NCBI RefSeq assembly: GCF_900129615.1
Contig: NZ_FQWI01000011.1
Location: forward strand, 1 to 64,000
DNA: 64,000 bases
Direction: 5' to 3'
From: Pectobacterium carotovorum
GTDB taxonomy: Bacteria; Pseudomonadota; Gammaproteobacteria; Enterobacterales; Enterobacteriaceae
Shown here: piece after piece, positions 47,183 to 56,180 of the stretch
Layout of the letters: every line of letters begins with the position of its first letter
Numbering within the stretch: position 1 is the stretch's first letter
The notes under the pieces: generated by a model
The model's database searches: none
Told to the model about the DNA's origin: nothing
The model's input: the letters and a program-made list of their open reading frames with translations, nothing else
Position numbers and translations under genes: made by a program

Positions 47183-47219
47183 CGTGGACTGATAAGCATC
47201 AAAATTGAATGCTAGTCAC

Positions 47220-47450
47220 ATGAAAACATCAGACTCAGTGAAAGTCCTGCTAGGACAACGTGTAAAAACACTCAGATTGCAAGCAGGTCTGTCGCAAGAA
47301 GCTTTTGCTGAAAAATGCGGTCTGGATCGTACCTACATCAGCGGCATTGAGCGCGGTATCAGAAATCCCACTCTGGAAATCCTCCACATCATCGCCAACG
47401 GATTACATACAACTCTGAATCACCTATTCACTTTCAGTGATCCCAACTAA
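47220..47450 (+). CDS. XRE-family regulator resembling restriction-modification C proteins, copy 1
   Basis: This 76-residue protein is a single XRE helix-turn-helix domain: GQRVKTLRLQAGLSQEAFAE, KCGLDRTYISGIERGIRNP, LEILHIIANGL. Size and motif match controller (C) proteins of type II restriction-modification systems. No Shine-Dalgarno sequence precedes ATG 47220, as in leaderless C genes. It is one of two tandem, nearly identical genes, each with a C-box-like operator upstream. No restriction or methyltransferase gene is found nearby. Confidence 0.85.
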   Translation: MKTSDSVKVLLGQRVKTLRLQAGLSQEAFAEKCGLDRTYISGIERGIRNPTLEILHIIANGLHTTLNHLFTFSDPN

Positions 47451-47483
47451 CGTCACGATTTTGTTGGTTATACAATCAATTGT

Positions 47484-47494
47484 GACTCATCGTC
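47484..47494. promoter_or_regulatory. C-box-like palindrome 3 (imperfect) followed by CGTG
   Basis: GACTCATCGTC plus CGTGG and GGATAAGCA repeats the layout of the box before copy 1 (TGTGACT, GTCCGTGG, GATAAGCA shared). One half-site base is changed, so affinity may differ. Confidence 0.6.
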
Positions 47495-47532
47495 CGTGGT
47501 CGGATAAGCAACAAAAGATAATGCTTATCCGC

Positions 47533-47757
47533 ATGGAAAGATCAAAAGACATCACAGTCCGCTTCGGACAACGAGTAAAAACACTTCGCTTACAAGCAGG
47601 GCTTTCACAAGAAGCCTTCGCAGATAAGTGCGGATTAGATCGTACCTATATCAGCGGCATTGAGCGCGGAGTGAGAAACCCGACGCTGGAAGTGATTGGG
47701 GTTATTGCTGATGGTCTGGGGATAAAATTGAAAATTCTTTTCGATTTCTCTTGCTAA
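47533..47757 (+). CDS. XRE-family regulator resembling restriction-modification C proteins, copy 2
   Basis: This 74-residue protein is a near duplicate of the preceding one: the segment GQRVKTLRLQAGLSQEAFA is identical, and KCGLDRTYISGIERG too; the C-terminal dimerisation part has diverged (VIGVIADGLGIKLKILFDF). Upstream sequence is duplicated as well. I chose ATG 47533 by comparison with copy 1; the ORF upstream to 47437 overlaps copy 1 and is an artefact. The next gene begins 19 bases later, so copy 2 may be co-transcribed with it. Confidence 0.83.
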   Translation: MERSKDITVRFGQRVKTLRLQAGLSQEAFADKCGLDRTYISGIERGVRNPTLEVIGVIADGLGIKLKILFDFSC

Positions 47758-48627: not shown

Positions 48628-49080
48628 CTAGCTGTTGCGCCGGAAACCGTATTCCTCATAAAACGCCGCAGCCCGTGCATCTTTCGCATCAACAATCAGC
48701 ACTCGCACCCCCATCGTATTACGCACAGATAACGCCATATTCACAGCATGTCCAAGCAAAAGTTGTCCGTAACCTTTCTTCTGTTCAGCAGTCGATACCG
48801 CCAAACGCCCCATACGCATAGCAGGCACCGGATATCCAGGCAGTCGCTTACGGTCATTTTCACTGAGCTCGTGCAAATATAAGTGTGCTGCGGACAATGA
48901 GCAGTAGCCCAGAATACAGGTAGGCTGCGACTCATCGAGCAGGATATGAGTCGTAGCGATTCCATCACGCTGATGTTGCGAGGCTCGCTTTTGTAGGTAA
49001 TCATCAAGAGCCAAAACACCACAAGAAAAACTTGAACGGTCATGGCGGCGGCCGTCCAACAATGAAAATATCAGAGCCAT
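48628..49080 (-). CDS. GNAT-family toxin of a TacT/AtaT-like toxin-antitoxin pair
   Basis: This 150-residue acetyltransferase resembles TacT/AtaT toxins, which acetylate aminoacyl-tRNA and stop translation. It shows the typical start (FSCGVLALDDYLQKRA), GYCSLSAAHL, PAMRMGRLAVSTAEQKKGYGQLLLGHA (acetyl-CoA loop) and AAAFYEEYGF. The gene starts 3 bases after the antitoxin stop. The pair is expected to be an addiction module; target and activity are inferred from family. Confidence 0.85.
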   Translation of the reverse strand: MALIFSLLDGRRHDRSSFSCGVLALDDYLQKRASQHQRDGIATTHILLDESQPTCILGYCSLSAAHLYLHELSENDRKRLPGYPVPAMRMGRLAVSTAEQKKGYGQLLLGHAVNMALSVRNTMGVRVLIVDAKDARAAAFYEEYGFRRNS

Positions 49081-49083
49081 AGG

Positions 49084-49353
49084 TTAGCGTTTCATCAAAT
49101 TGGCAGCCCCTTCCATCGCTTTATGCAAACGATCATTAGGCAGAAACGGCTGATTCAACGCAGCCAAGAAACGGCGAGATTCTTGCTCAGAAAGCGTAAC
49201 AGCGGTATCTGCGGCAATGGCGGTATCCGCTTCACGCAACACCGCATCACGCACAAATGCAGAAACAGCGATACCACGTAATGCGGCAGCCTTAGTGATG
49301 CGTTCTTTATCGTGAGCATTCAACCGAAGATCTAAACGAGCAGTAGTAGTCAT
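49084..49353 (-). CDS. DUF1778 (ribbon-helix-helix) antitoxin
   Basis: This 89-residue protein has an N-terminal ribbon-helix-helix (TARLDLRLNAHDKERITKAAALRGIAVSAFV) and a C-terminal tail (SEQESRRFLAALNQPFLPND) of the DUF1778/TacA type that wraps the GNAT toxin. AGGAGG precedes the ATG. It should repress its own operon through a palindrome just upstream. Confidence 0.88.
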   Translation of the reverse strand: MTTTARLDLRLNAHDKERITKAAALRGIAVSAFVRDAVLREADTAIAADTAVTLSEQESRRFLAALNQPFLPNDRLHKAMEGAANLMKR

Positions 49354-49674: not shown

Positions 49675-50013
49675 ATGGCAATCATCACCCAATCCACTAA
49701 ATTCGAAAAAGTCATTAGCCACGATGATGCAATGGTTGCGGAACTACGAGAAAATCCTGGATACGCAGAAATATACCTCCAGACAGCGCTAGAGGATATT
49801 TATGAGGAAGGTGGCATCGCGGCATTCCTGACAGCATTACGCCGTGTTGTTGAAGCGCGTGGCGGAGTGGGCGAAATAGCCAAAAAATCGGGACTGTCTC
49901 GCCAACAGCTATACAGAACATTGTCTGAAAATGGCAACCCGACGCTGACGACGCTCACCGAAATCACCAGAGCCGCAGGCGTTCGACTGATTCCCTATAC
50001 TCACAATAACTAA
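49675..50013 (+). CDS. HigA-like addiction module antidote protein
   Basis: This 112-residue protein has the pattern of HigA/'addiction module antidote' antitoxins: an N-terminal helical part (YLQTALEDIYEEGGIAAFLTALRRVVEARGG) and a C-terminal helix-turn-helix (VGEIAKKSGLSRQQLYRTLSENGNPTLTTL). AGAGG precedes the ATG. Its usual partner, a RelE/HigB-type toxin, is expected directly upstream but is not found. It may be a solitary antitoxin, and lies 33 bases from the left guaA-end repeat. Confidence 0.85.
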   Translation: MAIITQSTKFEKVISHDDAMVAELRENPGYAEIYLQTALEDIYEEGGIAAFLTALRRVVEARGGVGEIAKKSGLSRQQLYRTLSENGNPTLTTLTEITRAAGVRLIPYTHNN

Positions 50014-50046
50014 AAATATCAGTAGCTCAAGAGCCCAGAAAGACGT

Positions 50047-50130
50047 AAAAAACCCGCAGTTACGCGGGTTTAGATATTTTTTGCTGTTTAGCACAACGCT
50101 ATTTCAGACGCTGGCTTATTCCCACTCGAT
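50047..50130. repeat. Left copy of the guaA-end direct repeat (attachment-site-like)
   Basis: These 84 bases repeat the guaA terminator, the short downstream sequence and the last 12 coding bases plus stop of guaA. They match positions 54532-54617 except for one substitution and a two-base gap. In guaA orientation, identity stops right where guaA codon sequence would continue. This is the pattern left by site-specific recombination into the guaA 3' end. Confidence 0.85.
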
Positions 50131-50305
50131 TGTAAGTCAAAGTAACTTACCAATTAAAATCAATAAATTAGATAAAAATATTGAATACCATTCAAAATAC
50201 TACGATGTCATTCTACATGAGCCCATTGATAGTCTACGTTACATTACCTTACTTGACGCCGTCATTCAGGCGCAGGGACTGGTCGCGGCCTTAACCCCCA
50301 TTTAG
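50131..50305 (+). other. Orphan short reading frame at the left end of the guaA insertion
   Basis: An open frame runs from the repeat into unique sequence and ends at 50305. It reads SNLPIKINKLDKN, then YYDVILHEPIDSLRYITLLDAVIQAQGL. I do not recognise it. It has no ribosome site and may be the 3' end of a gene lost from the element, or simply a terminal sequence of the element. Confidence 0.3.
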
Positions 50306-50329
50306 TAAATCAAAAGGCAATAACAACAC

Positions 50330-52168
50330 TCAGGCCATGATTCGGATTTGATCAGATGCTAATAGCTTGCTTTCAATGAGTTCATCTCGTGCTCCATCTG
50401 GGTCACTGGTGAAGAGTACGATACGCAGATCCTCCTCCGCACGGGAGAACGAGACATATGCAAGTTTCTGAGTTACAGAACGTTGCCGCTCAGAAGGCTC
50501 GCCAGCAGTGAGCGGGGTTAGAGTCTTACTAAAGCTGTATTGGTTCCATGCGGCTTCGACATCGTCATAGACGACCAATACTTTTGGATACTCCTCCCCC
50601 TTAACGCCATGCTGAGTACTATAAGCGGTATTGTTGTTAAGAAAATCAGCATAACGGGATACCATCTCAGGCGTCATTTTGAACAGCGAGTCTGCGAGCC
50701 AGTCTCCTTTATCAAGACTATGAAGATCCTTATCGAACAGCTCAGCCCGAGGGGCACGATCAAGATGCTCACTCAGCCTTTCAGAAGGCTGGATGATCTG
50801 ATTCTCGATACAAAAACGAAGGATCGCTCCGATCGTCTCCGTATCCCACAAAGTCTGCAATTGCCCAAGCAAAGCCCTCGAAGTCTCAATCATCAATTTC
50901 AGTGATTTTTCCGCATTTAATCCATCGATCGCGAAAGCTGGACTATCGCGACGAAGCAAATTGATAATGTTTCGTTCATCACCCTGACGTTGAGCATAGA
51001 TAAGAGGGCAAATCGTCGAAAGAAATGGTTTGAGAAGAAAATGGGTACCTTCCTCAAAAGCATCCTTTGCGCGGGACGACGCAAAATCGCCAGTGAAAAG
51101 ACGGTTGAGGTCAGCAAAGCCAAGCCGACGTGCGATCATTTGACGTGCCAGAAAGAGTTTCATGACATCATCGCGATCTGTCCAGCCCCACTCTTCGACT
51201 GCAGCATCCATACGAGCTAGCGCCCGCTCAATCTGGTCTTCTGAGTAGCGCCTGCGTGGCTCCGATGGCTCTTCTGCCCCAATAAGCAAAAATTCGACAC
51301 TACCTTCACGTGCAGCATTTTCGCCAGCGGCATACTGTTCAACATCTCCCCGATAAGCATTGAGAAGTCGGATGACGCTCTGGGAACATCGGAAATTTTC
51401 CCTTTTCTTGATGACTTCACCTTTGTCAGGCGGTGCAAAATTACCTGCACTCCGGTCGTAAATTTGTTGCCAAGGGTCACCAAAATAACCGATCAAAGGA
51501 AGTTCAGCACCCGAACTAACGAGATTGAGCCCTGAAACGATACCCTCAAATGTATCCTGTGCTTCATCGATAAAGATGTAAGGGAAACGTAGGCCGATGA
51601 TCCGTCTGAGGGTTTCATTATTTGCAAGTAAGTAGCTTGCAATCTCAATGACGTCGTCGTGGCCGATCTGTCCTTTTGCGTAATCGCTGAAGCTCGTGTC
51701 GGCATAGTCAAAATGTTTGATTGAGGAGAGAAGTTCAAGCTCCTCAGTCAACCGTTCAATTTTTGCACGGGCATTTAGTGCCTTCTTGCTGTTACCACCG
51801 TTATCATCTTCCCTAGCCTTTTCTATAAGCTTTGGAATCCTACTCTCGCAGAGCGCTTGCCTAATATTTTCGTGAAAACGACTTATCTGTTCCCACAAAA
51901 ATCCATGCAGAGTTGAAATCCGGTATAGCTCATCGAACCCCAGCCTCCCCTTGATGATCTCAACTGCACGCTTGGTAAAGGTAATACAGGCAATGCGTTG
52001 ACCATTTTTTCTAAGGAAATGCCCCTCTTTGTGCCTAACCCGACTAAGAGCATCAACGAGGGAGCTAGTCTTGCCCGCCCCCGCACCAGCTATCATCGCA
52101 AAGCTACGATGGTCATCTATGCATTCTCGGACTTGAATATCCGCGTCGCTTTCTACCCATGTCACCAT
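50330..52168 (-). CDS. gajB: UvrD/PcrA-like helicase, Gabija GajB-type
   Basis: This 612-residue SF1 helicase has Walker A AGAGAGKT (27-34), motif Ia ITFTKRAVEI, Walker B IDEAQD (200-205), a motif III-like GDPWQQIYDRS, and late motifs VKGEEYPKVLVV and AYVSFSRAEEDLRI. Paired with an upstream class 2 OLD nuclease, it fits GajB of the Gabija anti-phage system. It is longer than the founding B. cereus GajB (about 490 residues). I chose ATG 52168, after GGGAG, 13 bases after the gajA stop; the ORF upstream to 52240 would overlap gajA. Confidence 0.85.
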   Translation of the reverse strand: MVTWVESDADIQVRECIDDHRSFAMIAGAGAGKTSSLVDALSRVRHKEGHFLRKNGQRIACITFTKRAVEIIKGRLGFDELYRISTLHGFLWEQISRFHENIRQALCESRIPKLIEKAREDDNGGNSKKALNARAKIERLTEELELLSSIKHFDYADTSFSDYAKGQIGHDDVIEIASYLLANNETLRRIIGLRFPYIFIDEAQDTFEGIVSGLNLVSSGAELPLIGYFGDPWQQIYDRSAGNFAPPDKGEVIKKRENFRCSQSVIRLLNAYRGDVEQYAAGENAAREGSVEFLLIGAEEPSEPRRRYSEDQIERALARMDAAVEEWGWTDRDDVMKLFLARQMIARRLGFADLNRLFTGDFASSRAKDAFEEGTHFLLKPFLSTICPLIYAQRQGDERNIINLLRRDSPAFAIDGLNAEKSLKLMIETSRALLGQLQTLWDTETIGAILRFCIENQIIQPSERLSEHLDRAPRAELFDKDLHSLDKGDWLADSLFKMTPEMVSRYADFLNNNTAYSTQHGVKGEEYPKVLVVYDDVEAAWNQYSFSKTLTPLTAGEPSERQRSVTQKLAYVSFSRAEEDLRIVLFTSDPDGARDELIESKLLASDQIRIMA

Positions 52169-52181
52169 GCTATTCTCCCTC

Positions 52182-54275
52182 TTAGACAACGACTTCTGTA
52201 TCCACAGCCGCTGATAGCTGGGGTAATAAGCGTGACTCAAGCCAACTCAATCCTTCGGCAATATACCTAGGGACAGTCCATTCCTGAGTGCAAGCCAATA
52301 TATCCATGGCGAAATCGGTCTTTTTGAAACTATCTGACCGAACTCTCTCGTAGACGACCTGGTAAACATCGCTAAGAGGGACGTGGACGTTGGTGCCGAT
52401 AGATAACGTACCGGATCGAAGTAGCCCAAGATTCTCATAGACGATTGCCTCTTCTAAAGTTCGCGGACGAAGTGTCGCGTTCGTCACACCATCTGTGACC
52501 AAAATATCCGTCTGAAAGGCAATGCAGCGATCCTTATCAGTGTGTTGTTTCTCGGCAGAAGTCAATGCCATCAAATCGGCGATTGTAGTCTGCCCGCAAA
52601 GTTTTTTTAGAGATGCGTTAGAGGTCCTTGCTCCGACTACATCTGCTCGACAGGCGCTCGGATGGCCGGTAGGTGCCACAGAATCAATATCAGTGATAAC
52701 AAGGTAGGGGATATGAAGGAAGCTGAGCAGACCTTCGAAGCGGTGGGCATAGGCCCCTCCGACTTCTAGGATTGTTAGATATACAGTCCTCAATCGCCCT
52801 GCAGCACGTTCGATCATGGATGGCATTAGCAGTTTCTCAACTGCACCTTCGACAAGTATGGCGGCATCAGCAAAAAATAGGTCGCAGTGTGTAAGGCGTA
52901 AATAGCGTTTCAGGAAGGCTAGCGATTCTGACGGGGAAACAAGGTTACCATCTACCATCTCCACTTCCGGCTGGAAAGTCCGTAGACTTCGAACCATTGA
53001 GGCATTGCGAATACGAGTCGCTCCTATTTCACCCTCGCTGTAACAGCGCTGGAAATAGCGAACTTTCTCAAAGTCCACAGCTTCCATGATATGAGAAGAG
53101 TGTGTGGTTACGACAAGTTGTGGCACTAGATTAGGTTCGCCAGCCGCCTCAGCGGACTGGTTGATTACCTGCCATATATTAGAGATGAAAGTTTGTTGTA
53201 CCTGAGCGTGAAGGTGAACCTCTGGTTCTTCAATAAATATCATCAGGCACAAAGGCCTGTTTTCAGTGGTCATTACCCACTGAGAATGAAAGTGCCGGGC
53301 CTGAATAGCCATAAATATTAAATTTTTAAAACCAAGACCGTTATATAACTCGGGAAGTTCATGCTTTCGGCTAGGGTCAATATAAAGCAGCTCGGTATTT
53401 CCACGCAGTGCAGTTTCAGGGCTAAGTGACGAGATAATCTGTAATTCTCGATCATTGATCGATGGTACACCAAGGTGTTTGATGAGGTCGATCAGCGGGG
53501 CAAACTGCTTTGCATAGTGATCTGTCAGCTGTTTGTTATTATCATCGATTACTTTGTGAGCATCTGCTGCATGACCGACTTGCTCAAGATTCTTTTGGTA
53601 GAAGGTGGAGAAAGCCGATGAGAGCCGGTTACTACGGCTGCTATCGTCATCGTTAATATTGCGCTGCGCGTCCACAAACTCTACCCGTATAAGATTCTTC
53701 AGAAGGCGTTTACCTTCATCAGGATCAAGGTGATTAGTTAGGATCTCTGGCGGTGCTCCCTCCTGAATTTTCTCATCGAGAGAGGAGTAGCAAACTGCAA
53801 AATGTCGTCCAAGATTTCCACCAAGCGCTAAATATTGCGACAGCGACTTAGAGCGGATCCCACCTTCCATTGGTGGATAAGCGGCGTCGTAATTGTCACG
53901 TAACTTCTTTGGTTCCGAGACTTCATACGACAGCCGAATTCCTACTCGAGTGAAATCCGAAAGTTTTGGCAACAGTGTGAAAACTCTACCGAAACCGATG
54001 CTCTCGGGATCAATGGTGAACCAAATATCAAGACTAATTTTGGGAAGCTGGGCAGCATCTCCGGTCGTTGCAAATGTGTCGAAATCAGGCATTCGGGCAA
54101 CGGAGAAATCGTGAATCTTAAAATCGCGTCCGCCAAGAAAGCAGCGAAAAATTGCGGTGGCAGAAGTCTTACCGCTGTTATTGGGTCCAACAAAAATGGA
54201 TTCCCTATCTTCAAGGTCAATCTGAACATTTTCCAGTCGGCGGAAATTCCGAATTGCTACACCACTTACTTTCAT
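52182..54275 (-). CDS. gajA: OLD-family ATPase/TOPRIM endonuclease, Gabija GajA-type
   Basis: This 697-residue protein has an ABC/SMC-like ATPase half with Walker A GPNNSGKT (30-37), a Walker-B-like CLMIFIEEPEVHLH (343-356) and the H-loop VVTTHSSHI (389-397). The TOPRIM domain follows with E476 in ILVEGAVEKL and D529/D531 in ITDIDS, the metal-binding residues of OLD nucleases. GajA is a nucleotide-controlled DNA nickase that acts with GajB. At 697 residues it is longer than the founding GajA (about 580), with an extended C-terminus. The 256 bases upstream, to the right guaA-end repeat, should hold the promoter. Confidence 0.88.
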   Translation of the reverse strand: MKVSGVAIRNFRRLENVQIDLEDRESIFVGPNNSGKTSATAIFRCFLGGRDFKIHDFSVARMPDFDTFATTGDAAQLPKISLDIWFTIDPESIGFGRVFTLLPKLSDFTRVGIRLSYEVSEPKKLRDNYDAAYPPMEGGIRSKSLSQYLALGGNLGRHFAVCYSSLDEKIQEGAPPEILTNHLDPDEGKRLLKNLIRVEFVDAQRNINDDDSSRSNRLSSAFSTFYQKNLEQVGHAADAHKVIDDNNKQLTDHYAKQFAPLIDLIKHLGVPSINDRELQIISSLSPETALRGNTELLYIDPSRKHELPELYNGLGFKNLIFMAIQARHFHSQWVMTTENRPLCLMIFIEEPEVHLHAQVQQTFISNIWQVINQSAEAAGEPNLVPQLVVTTHSSHIMEAVDFEKVRYFQRCYSEGEIGATRIRNASMVRSLRTFQPEVEMVDGNLVSPSESLAFLKRYLRLTHCDLFFADAAILVEGAVEKLLMPSMIERAAGRLRTVYLTILEVGGAYAHRFEGLLSFLHIPYLVITDIDSVAPTGHPSACRADVVGARTSNASLKKLCGQTTIADLMALTSAEKQHTDKDRCIAFQTDILVTDGVTNATLRPRTLEEAIVYENLGLLRSGTLSIGTNVHVPLSDVYQVVYERVRSDSFKKTDFAMDILACTQEWTVPRYIAEGLSWLESRLLPQLSAAVDTEVVV

Positions 54276-54531
54276 ATAATCCCCCTCCCTGACACATTAA
54301 GAAAACAATCCGAAAACTGGTGCTCCTCGCTCCGTTTGCAATCCTATTCTATCTGTAACAACCAGACTCTTTTTACCATACCTATTATGTGATTGGGGGA
54401 TGTAGTGGTCACAGCTTTAGAGTTTTTTCAGCGCAATAGTTGTAATCCATCTGGCGTAAAACCATCTCAAATTCCATTTGAAAAATGAGTTTCTCATGCG
54501 ATAGCTGCCTGAAAATGCCAGACATAAAAAC

Positions 54532-54556
54532 AAAAAACCCGCAGTTACGCGGGTTT
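54532..54556 (-). terminator. Rho-independent terminator of guaA
   Basis: On the minus strand, AAACCCGCGTAACTGCGGGTTTTTT forms a stem-loop with a T-run, about 47 bases after the guaA stop. An identical terminator is present in the left repeat copy. Confidence 0.9.
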
Positions 54557-54617
54557 AGATGTACTTTTTGCTGTTTAGCACAACGCTATTTCAGACGCTG
54601 GCTTATTCCCACTCGAT
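54532..54617. repeat. Right copy of the guaA-end direct repeat, within guaA end and terminator
   Basis: This is the copy attached to the intact guaA gene: last four codons, stop, short spacer and terminator. It matches the left copy at 50047-50130 in 83 of 86 aligned positions (one substitution and a two-base gap). The 4.5 kb between the copies carries only gajA, gajB and a short orphan frame. Confidence 0.85.
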
Positions 54618-56180
54618 CGTCGCAGGTGGCTTGCCCGATACGTCATAAACGACGCGAGAGATGCCGTCGACTTCGTTGATGATGCGGTTGGAGACGCGGC
54701 CGAGGAAGTCGTATGGCAGGTGTGCCCAGTGCGCGGTCATAAAGTCGATGGTTTCTACCGCGCGCAGCGCGACAACCCAATCGTATTTACGGCCATCGCC
54801 CATCACGCCCACGGAACGAACTGGCAGGAAGACGGTGAATGCCTGGCTGACCTTGTTGTACAGGTCGGCTTTGTGCAACTCTTCGATGAAGATCGCATCC
54901 GCACGACGCAGCAGGTCGCAGTATTCTTTCTTCACTTCACCCAGCACGCGTACGCCCAGACCTGGGCCAGGGAACGGATGACGGTACAGCATGTTGTACG
55001 GCAGACCCAGTTCCAGACCGATCTTGCGTACTTCGTCTTTGAACAGCTCTTTCAGCGGCTCAACCAGACCCAGCTTCATCTCTTTCGGCAGGCCACCCAC
55101 GTTGTGGTGTGACTTGATCACGTGCGCTTTGCCCGTCGCAGAAGCCGCAGATTCGATCACGTCTGGGTAGATGGTGCCTTGCGCCAGCCATTTCACTTGT
55201 TCTTGCTTGCTGGCTTCTTCATCGAACACTTCAACGAACACGCGACCGATAATTTTACGCTTGGCTTCCGGCTCATCTTCACCCGCCAGTTCGCTCAGGA
55301 AGCGATCTTCCGCCGCCACGTGAACAATGTTCAGACCGAACTGATCGCCGAACATTTCCAGAACTTGATCGGCTTCGTTCAGACGCAGCAGGCCGTTATC
55401 GACAAACACACAGGTCAGACGATCGCCAATCGCACGGTGCAGCAGCATCGCAGTAACAGAAGAATCCACGCCGCCAGACAGGCCCAAAATCACGTGATCG
55501 TTGCCTACCTGCTCACGAATACGGTTCACCGCATCGTCGATAATCTTGGCTGGTGTCCACAGCACTTCACACTGGCAGATATCAAGAACAAAACGCTCCA
55601 GCATGCGCTGGCCCTGACGGGTGTGCGTCACTTCCGGGTGGAACTGCACGCCGTAAAAACGCTTCTCTTCGTTCGCCATGATGGCAAACGGACAGGTATC
55701 GGTACTGGCAACGGTCTCAAAGCCTTCTGGGATCGCCGTTACTTTATCGCCGTGGCTCATCCAGACATCCAGCAGCGGTGCACCTGTGGCGCTCAACGCA
55801 TCCTGAATATCACGCACCAGCGCGCTATCCGTTTTCACTTCTACCTGCGCATAACCAAACTCACGCTCGTTGGAACCTTCAACGTGGCCACCCAACTGCA
55901 TCGCCATCGTCTGCATGCCATAGCACACGCCTAATACCGGTACGCCAGCATTGAAAACGTATTCTGGCGCACGCGGGCTGCCAAACTCGGTGGTGCTTTC
56001 CGGGCCACCGGACAGGATGATCCCGTTCGGATTAAACCCACGAATCTGTGCTTCCGTGACATCCCATGCCCACAGTTCACAGTAAACGCCCAGTTCACGC
56101 ACGCGACGTGCAACCAGTTGCGTGTACTGTGAGCCGAAATCCAGAATAAGAATGCGGTGTTGATGAATGTTTTGAGTCAT
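54603..56180 (-). CDS. guaA: GMP synthase (glutamine-hydrolysing) GuaA
   Basis: This enzyme converts XMP to GMP, using glutamine as nitrogen donor. The 525-residue product equals E. coli GuaA in length. The class I glutamine amidotransferase domain has C86 in [11 protein letters not shown] and the catalytic FHPEVTHT; the ATP pyrophosphatase domain has the P-loop [13 protein letters not shown]; the C-terminal dimerisation domain ends in IEWE. ATG 56180 matches the E. coli start (MT-NIH-HRIL); ATG 56189 is also possible. The 3' end is a known insertion hotspot in bacteria, and a duplicated guaA end lies 4.5 kb away. Confidence 0.95.

Follow-up and report, generated by a model that had tools for sequence, protein, structure and literature searches.

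The end of guaA (GMP synthase) is a known insertion site of genomic islands, and the closest described system there is the GIsul2 family. In the part of PMC9376610 available to us, GIsul2 has 19-bp att sites with the centre GAGTGGGA at the guaA end, its integrase moves both GIsul2 and an int-less CR2-sul2 unit between att cores in recA-deficient E. coli (in the CR2-sul2 transfer the int gene sat on the same donor plasmid), integration is abolished on loss of int, and Int and att suffice for integration. Cis-mobilizable elements (CIMEs), as defined in the available part of PMC5704250, keep both att sites and have lost their integration and transfer genes. Defence genes near guaA have been described in another host, Stenotrophomonas maltophilia, where guaA borders a defence-rich spot with mixed cargo (island #13, PMC11680222), a likeness to the present locus that leaves att structure aside as far as that source was available. 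Streptococcus suis integrative mobilizable elements (IMEs) lie in guaA (PMC12479173) and guaA has been used for typing (PMC12090758); the available parts of these two papers do not link Gabija to guaA, and our literature search found no paper joining Gabija with a guaA island among the matches listed.

A Gabija pair between two guaA-type cores

The window (the whole stretch of DNA analysed, 64,000 nucleotides of Pectobacterium carotovorum) carries guaA at 54603..56180 on the minus strand, an ORF with exactly one match per genome in 25/25 genus genomes, whose 3' end is the attachment site of a 4.5-kb unit. Two near-identical copies of this end lie 4.5 kb apart at 50047-50130 and 54532-54617, as an earlier, sequence-only reading had described, with 96% identity overall (ungapped blocks of 59 nt at 97% and 36 nt at 92% over the compared spans 50047-50133 and 54532-54620). 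Each copy comprises the last 15 guaA bases including the stop (ATC GAG TGG GAA TAA), a spacer and a shared terminator hairpin, the hairpins folding at -12.5 kcal/mol, well under shuffles (z -3.7 and -4.1). A 50-base piece of the repeat occurs exactly twice in the window vs. 0 expected from 100 shuffles, and the repeat matches solely these two places in the whole 4.76-Mb genome (E <= 0.001).

Both copies contain the GAGTGGGA core, the guaA-proximal one as GATCGAGTGGGAATAA (54603..54618, minus strand), with the centre given for GIsul2 in PMC9376610, and the distal one as AATCGAGTGGGAATAA (50116..50131, minus strand). On the guaA side the likeness of the copies ends at the 15-base core, and the att site is a short core (published at 19 bp, with this same centre) rather than the 84/86-base repeat; what had been proposed as attachment-like sites is therefore right for the cores and too long for the repeats. 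The distal spacer and terminator (50047..50115, minus strand) are the original guaA end, judged from the fold and from a spacer 97% identical to the empty sites of two relatives, G011 and G022. The proximal spacer and guaA terminator (54532..54602, minus strand) are native-like as well, the spacer sharing 93% identity with the same empty sites vs. 69% with the spacer of the Phytobacter island described below, and because of this native-like spacer the repeats exceed the att core in length. Immediately ahead of the hairpin it reads the element-like AAAGTACATCTAAACC, which resembles the element's AAAGTACCTCTAAGCC. The native-like proximal spacer probably results from homologous exchange between the copies, and excision through the terminator followed by re-entry is an alternative source that would give this pattern. 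No tRNA was found within the window as an insertion target.

The unit encloses only a Gabija pair, as had been suggested from the sequence, and no integrase ORF lies between the copies in the ORF list, nor did the genome integrase search match anything on this contig. The first gene, gajA (52182..54275, minus strand), encodes an intact 697-aa class 2 OLD nuclease with an ABC-type ATPase (AAA_15) and an OLD-like TOPRIM domain (PADLOC E 6.3e-211; PF13175 E 4.3e-44; PF20469 E 6.2e-18), and 13 bases on lies gajB (50330..52168, minus strand), encoding an intact 612-aa UvrD-like helicase (PADLOC E 1.2e-175; PF00580 UvrD-helicase E 1.1e-14). Known Gabija likewise joins an AAA and TOPRIM nuclease to a UvrD-like helicase in adjoining genes, but the window proteins are far from the solved GajA and GajB chains (E 3e-9 and 4e-6, respectively) and their defence role is a predicted one; NCBIfam gave no model above cut-off for either protein. 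GajA is 85-88% and GajB 85-87% identical to the copies of Phytobacter, Pseudomonas piscis and Erwinia, without internal stops, and dN/dS against these copies (0.07-0.09 for gajA, 0.11 for gajB) points to two intact genes under purifying selection, which presumably still protect the host cell against phage. The pair is slightly closer to that of P. piscis than to the Phytobacter and Erwinia copies, from which it is separated by a dS of 0.75-0.99. Comparison with the fetched loci at the DNA level shows that the gajA leader (54278..54354, minus strand) is common to Gabija loci elsewhere (88% to P. piscis over 77 bases, 85% to Phytobacter over 55), and that the gajB 3' flank (50277..50329, minus strand) is common to the Phytobacter guaA island (92% over 59 bases, gene end included).

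The unit is like the GIsul2 family in its site at the guaA 3' end and in the GAGTGGGA core at both ends, and like CR2-sul2 in being an integrase-less stretch between cores, as far as the available part of PMC9376610 describes them, but it is without int, alpA, rep, trb and sul2 and its cargo is Gabija. The absence of alpA, repA/repC and trb genes from the 4.5-kb unit was seen both in its ORFs and in DNA comparison with the Phytobacter island, and the unit lacks the tyrosine integrase beside guaA that marks a GIsul2-type IME. Its DNA had no match in plasmids and E. coli genomes; GajA matched five phage records and 15 plasmid records (the latter at E <= 1e-100), every one under 60%. GajA of this clade was found in 0/24 same-genus relatives, three of which carry a distant GajA (34-35%). 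A scan of 28 of 37 loci for direct repeats flanking Gabija elsewhere gave none clear of shuffles (two exceeded the shuffle maximum by 1), which suggests that repeats like the window's are no general feature of this Gabija clade; the scan reached 1.5 kb upstream of gajA and some 2 kb past gajB, and so misses repeats lying farther out, as in Phytobacter, and the nine remaining loci, several close to contig ends, were dropped by hand.

Occupants of the guaA site in other genomes

The same Gabija clade is found in integrase-bearing islands at guaA. In Phytobacter massiliensis JC163, guaA (91.5% identity over 519 aa) is followed by an island of 19.5 kb bounded by a core on either side, which carries a related arm, a tyrosine integrase of 396 aa that has an arm-binding domain, AlpA, an AAA_25 protein, a NikA-like protein, TrbJ, TrbL, GajA (85%), GajB (85%), a RES protein and HipA. 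It also contains a 257-aa ORF, a putative RepC by analogy with GIsul2, which no library named. Erwinia endophytica has the order guaA, integrase (98% to that of Phytobacter), further genes and Gabija (GajA 85%), with no second core found in the 22-kb locus, whilst a cut contig of Citrobacter sp., without guaA, has mobC-trb-Gabija-RES in that order and a core close to its end. A compact order of guaA, integrase (58%), GajA (71%) and GajB in Xanthobacter agilis is possibly a small autonomous Gabija island. The integrase of the related islands is likened to that of GIsul2, as described in the available part of its source, through site, core and gene content and not through sequence. Within the window's genus, one relative (G006) carries at guaA an integrase-bearing element of 16.9 kb that lacks Gabija, and a close integrase occurs in 2/25 genus genomes (G006 at 97%, G007 at 54%). 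An integrase near the same site, which the sequence-only reading had proposed to look for, is present in Phytobacter, Erwinia, Xanthobacter, G006 and G007. The Phytobacter-type integrase is carried by at least 33 of the 392 genomes in the family sample (E <= 1e-120), a lower bound, with four candidates per genome scored in most. Outside guaA, the Gabija pair stands alone among other genes in Pseudomonas, Variovorax and Polaromonas loci (ORFs judged by eye), where homology is confined to the genes and short flanks, and the 22-kb Gabija locus of P. piscis contains no core.

Empty sites with a single guaA end, which the sequence-only reading had proposed to look for, are present in 10/24 same-genus relatives (G005, G011, G012, G017, G018, G019, G021, G022, G023 and G024), in which no more than about 110 bases separate the guaA tail from the sequence lying outside the window's distal copy; the other 14/24 have different DNA after the guaA tail. 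The guaA end of G018 joins an element-type spacer to the native flank; it looks like the scar of an island lost via the terminator repeat, and its spacer is the opposite product of the same kind of exchange or excision as the window's proximal spacer. A second core-like site downstream of guaA was found in 2/24 relatives, G006 and G016, within the 16-18 kb fetched. Second repeat matches in G008 and G023 were considered as other cargo and rejected, since they cover only the terminator part (26 and 49 bases) with the core absent; far matches in G002, G007, G014 and G015 were likewise rejected as terminator pieces with no core. By eye, the terminator pieces in G007, G014, G015 and G023 adjoin a stretch resembling the same insertion sequence (IS) tail.

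Other cargo between core-like sites at guaA, a further thing the sequence-only reading had proposed to look for, is seen in other genomes. Twenty family loci were fetched in a sample that was not random, 19 were examined and 16 of these begin with guaA; the family sample search gave no integrase match for 18/19. Five of them (G190, G346, G176, G303 and G091) have a further core-like site downstream, several of these cores being loose matches, and the 8-base centre is by itself weak evidence. No integrase match (E <= 1e-5) lies in the stretches bounded by core-like sites at guaA in G016 (11.5 kb), G303 (8.2 kb), G176 (8.2 kb) and G091 (0.9 kb). For example, the G303 locus (L179:203-10760) has two tandem stretches, the first combining a retron I-A set (RT, ATPase, HNH) with two GmrSD-like genes, whilst the G016 stretch beside guaA contains an IetA-like ATPase and pieces of an MkoA-like helicase and ends in a far core, its distal copy being 86% identical to that of the window. 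The guaA-side end of the G016 stretch, GGGAGTGACCGGTACTGGC, resembles the CR2 terIS GGGAGTGACGGGCACTGGC in the available part of PMC9376610.

Origin of the unit

Next to the proximal terminator lies an element arm with CTGGCA-like repeats (54461..54531, minus strand), homologous to the pre-integrase stretch of the integrase-bearing guaA islands (78% over 74 bases, E 1.2e-7 in the database of fetched loci); the longer stretch 54461-54617 shares 78% identity with the integrase-side arm of Phytobacter. The arm is followed by the decayed 3' end of an IS3-family transposase gene, a probable deletion scar (54406..54464, minus strand), which matches the end of orfB of an IS in G011 (81% over 59 bases, E 2.9e-9 in a small database of fetched loci) and has, by eye, a stop in the old frame; the G011 orfB belongs to the IS3 family (NCBIfam E 4.6e-87). 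As the arm adjoins this IS3-like end, which is in turn followed by the gajA leader, the integrase-to-transfer block of the relatives appears to have been replaced by the IS-like scar. On the distal side, an AT-rich stretch of 143 bases (50134..50276) has no convincing homolog, with only short, weak matches (E 0.001-0.009) in 4/24 relatives, no match in plasmids or E. coli, and nothing among the fetched loci beyond the 50277-50329 flank.

Fragmentary integrases at guaA suggest that integrase loss is common at this site. Near guaA, 4/24 relatives (G003, G014, G015 and G023) have integrase fragments only, and 2/24 (G006 and G007) have a full-length integrase; two family loci (G190 and G346) have a broken integrase, and in Morganella psychrotolerans Gabija is accompanied by a core and a 117-residue integrase piece (52%). 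In one IMG/VR contig (IMGVR_UViG_2847550744_000003, 6933-11378), phage lysis-type genes (by eye) are followed by a core, an arm, a fusion of integrase residues 1-250 (98.8% identity) with GajA residues 311-697, then GajB and, 4.4 kb further along, another core. If it is not an assembly artefact, which it could be, this contig would represent a separate internal deletion between two guaA-type cores.

We consider it likely that the window's unit is a CIME, the integrase-less remnant of a GIsul2-type integrative mobilizable element that brought Gabija to the guaA site as cargo. A GIsul2-type element would have entered the guaA 3' end by site-specific recombination, its integrase, AlpA, replication and transfer genes would then have been lost, probably when an IS of the IS3 family inserted and a deletion followed, and both core sites and the intact gajA-gajB pair would have been kept under purifying selection, whilst the flanking guaA ends may later have grown more alike by homologous exchange. 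The likeness to a CIME concerns gene content and att sites and does not extend to mobilisation, as far as the available part of PMC5704250 goes; for the unit to excise or spread, an incoming element would have to supply a GIsul2-type integrase. Two things speak for a remnant: the same Gabija clade rides integrase-bearing guaA islands in other genera, and an IS3-type transposase scar sits where the integrase and transfer block would be. Against this, the IS3 match is short, with an E-value from a small local database, and the distal arm has no homology support, its 143 bases matching nothing convincing. The dS of 0.75-0.99, together with the slightly nearer pair in the core-less P. piscis locus, suggests that the parent is not among the islands seen, and with the window's GajA in 0/24 relatives no intermediate was seen either.

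The sequence-only reading had proposed a very small mobile defence unit, and its site, its pair and its missing integrase all hold, but decay of a larger element explains the unit better than a minimal mobile design does. That the unit is kept as such, with guaA att cores, and is moved by visiting GIsul2-family integrases is unlikely, and survives as a rival because of the integrase-less units in G303, G016 and other genomes (G176 and G091). It also has a precedent in the movement of CR2-sul2 by the GIsul2 integrase (PMC9376610, available part), and the spacer pattern would fit a single round of excision and re-entry. However, the IS scar and the fragmentary integrases around guaA point to decay, no second occurrence of the unit was found in the genomes and contigs searched, and the cognate integrase was not found in the window's genome, where the best match to an integrase of this clade is 35% with none at E <= 1e-90, which speaks against supply from elsewhere in the same genome. 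More broadly, and as a rather doubtful proposal, GIsul2-family integrases might sustain a set of defence cassettes that have no integrase, are addressed to guaA and swap at one site in trans, much as gene cassettes do with a visiting recombinase. The set might, with similar doubt, count as members Gabija here, retron I-A with GmrSD-like genes in G303 and the IetA/MkoA-like genes in G016. If movement in trans were true, defence genes that carry no integrase would still spread, and searches that begin with integrases would overlook them.

The standalone pairs in Pseudomonas, Variovorax and Polaromonas, with homology limited to genes and short flanks, and the nearness of the window pair to P. piscis would also suit a separate arrival of Gabija, through homologous or illegitimate recombination, in a guaA-element remnant that had already been emptied. 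We regard this as improbable, as guaA islands of Phytobacter and Erwinia carry the same clade, which in Citrobacter lies among the same neighbours, and as the gajB 3' flank is shared at 92% with the Phytobacter island. A plain duplication of the guaA end without site-specific recombination would account for repeats longer than the published 19-bp att site, but it is already largely refuted and we give it almost no credence: the guaA-side likeness stops at the 15-base core, and the arm past the proximal terminator is homologous to integrase-bearing elements that occupy the same point. Read as a remnant, the unit would tie Gabija to a kind of island whose integrase is published as moving an integrase-less unit (PMC9376610, available part), would cleanly illustrate how a defence pair can persist after its carrier element is gone, and would make guaA a named site for surveying such remnants and their mobility.

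The native flank

Beyond the distal copy lies the native chromosomal flank (49675..50046), which adjoins guaA in 10/24 relatives and contains an antitoxin-like ORF on the plus strand (49675-50013; Pfam dnstrm_HI1420, E 8.4e-13). By eye, this ORF is without the 107-aa partner ORF seen beside its counterpart in G011 and G023, and the window antitoxin is apparently solitary. At 48628-49353 the window has a TacA-like antitoxin and GNAT acetyltransferase pair, likely a toxin-antitoxin module, which is also found at the same spot in four relatives (G002, G009, G016 and G019). Further out, at 47205-47757, two adjoining, similar HTH regulators share 77-82% identity at the DNA level and are apparently a tandem duplicate.
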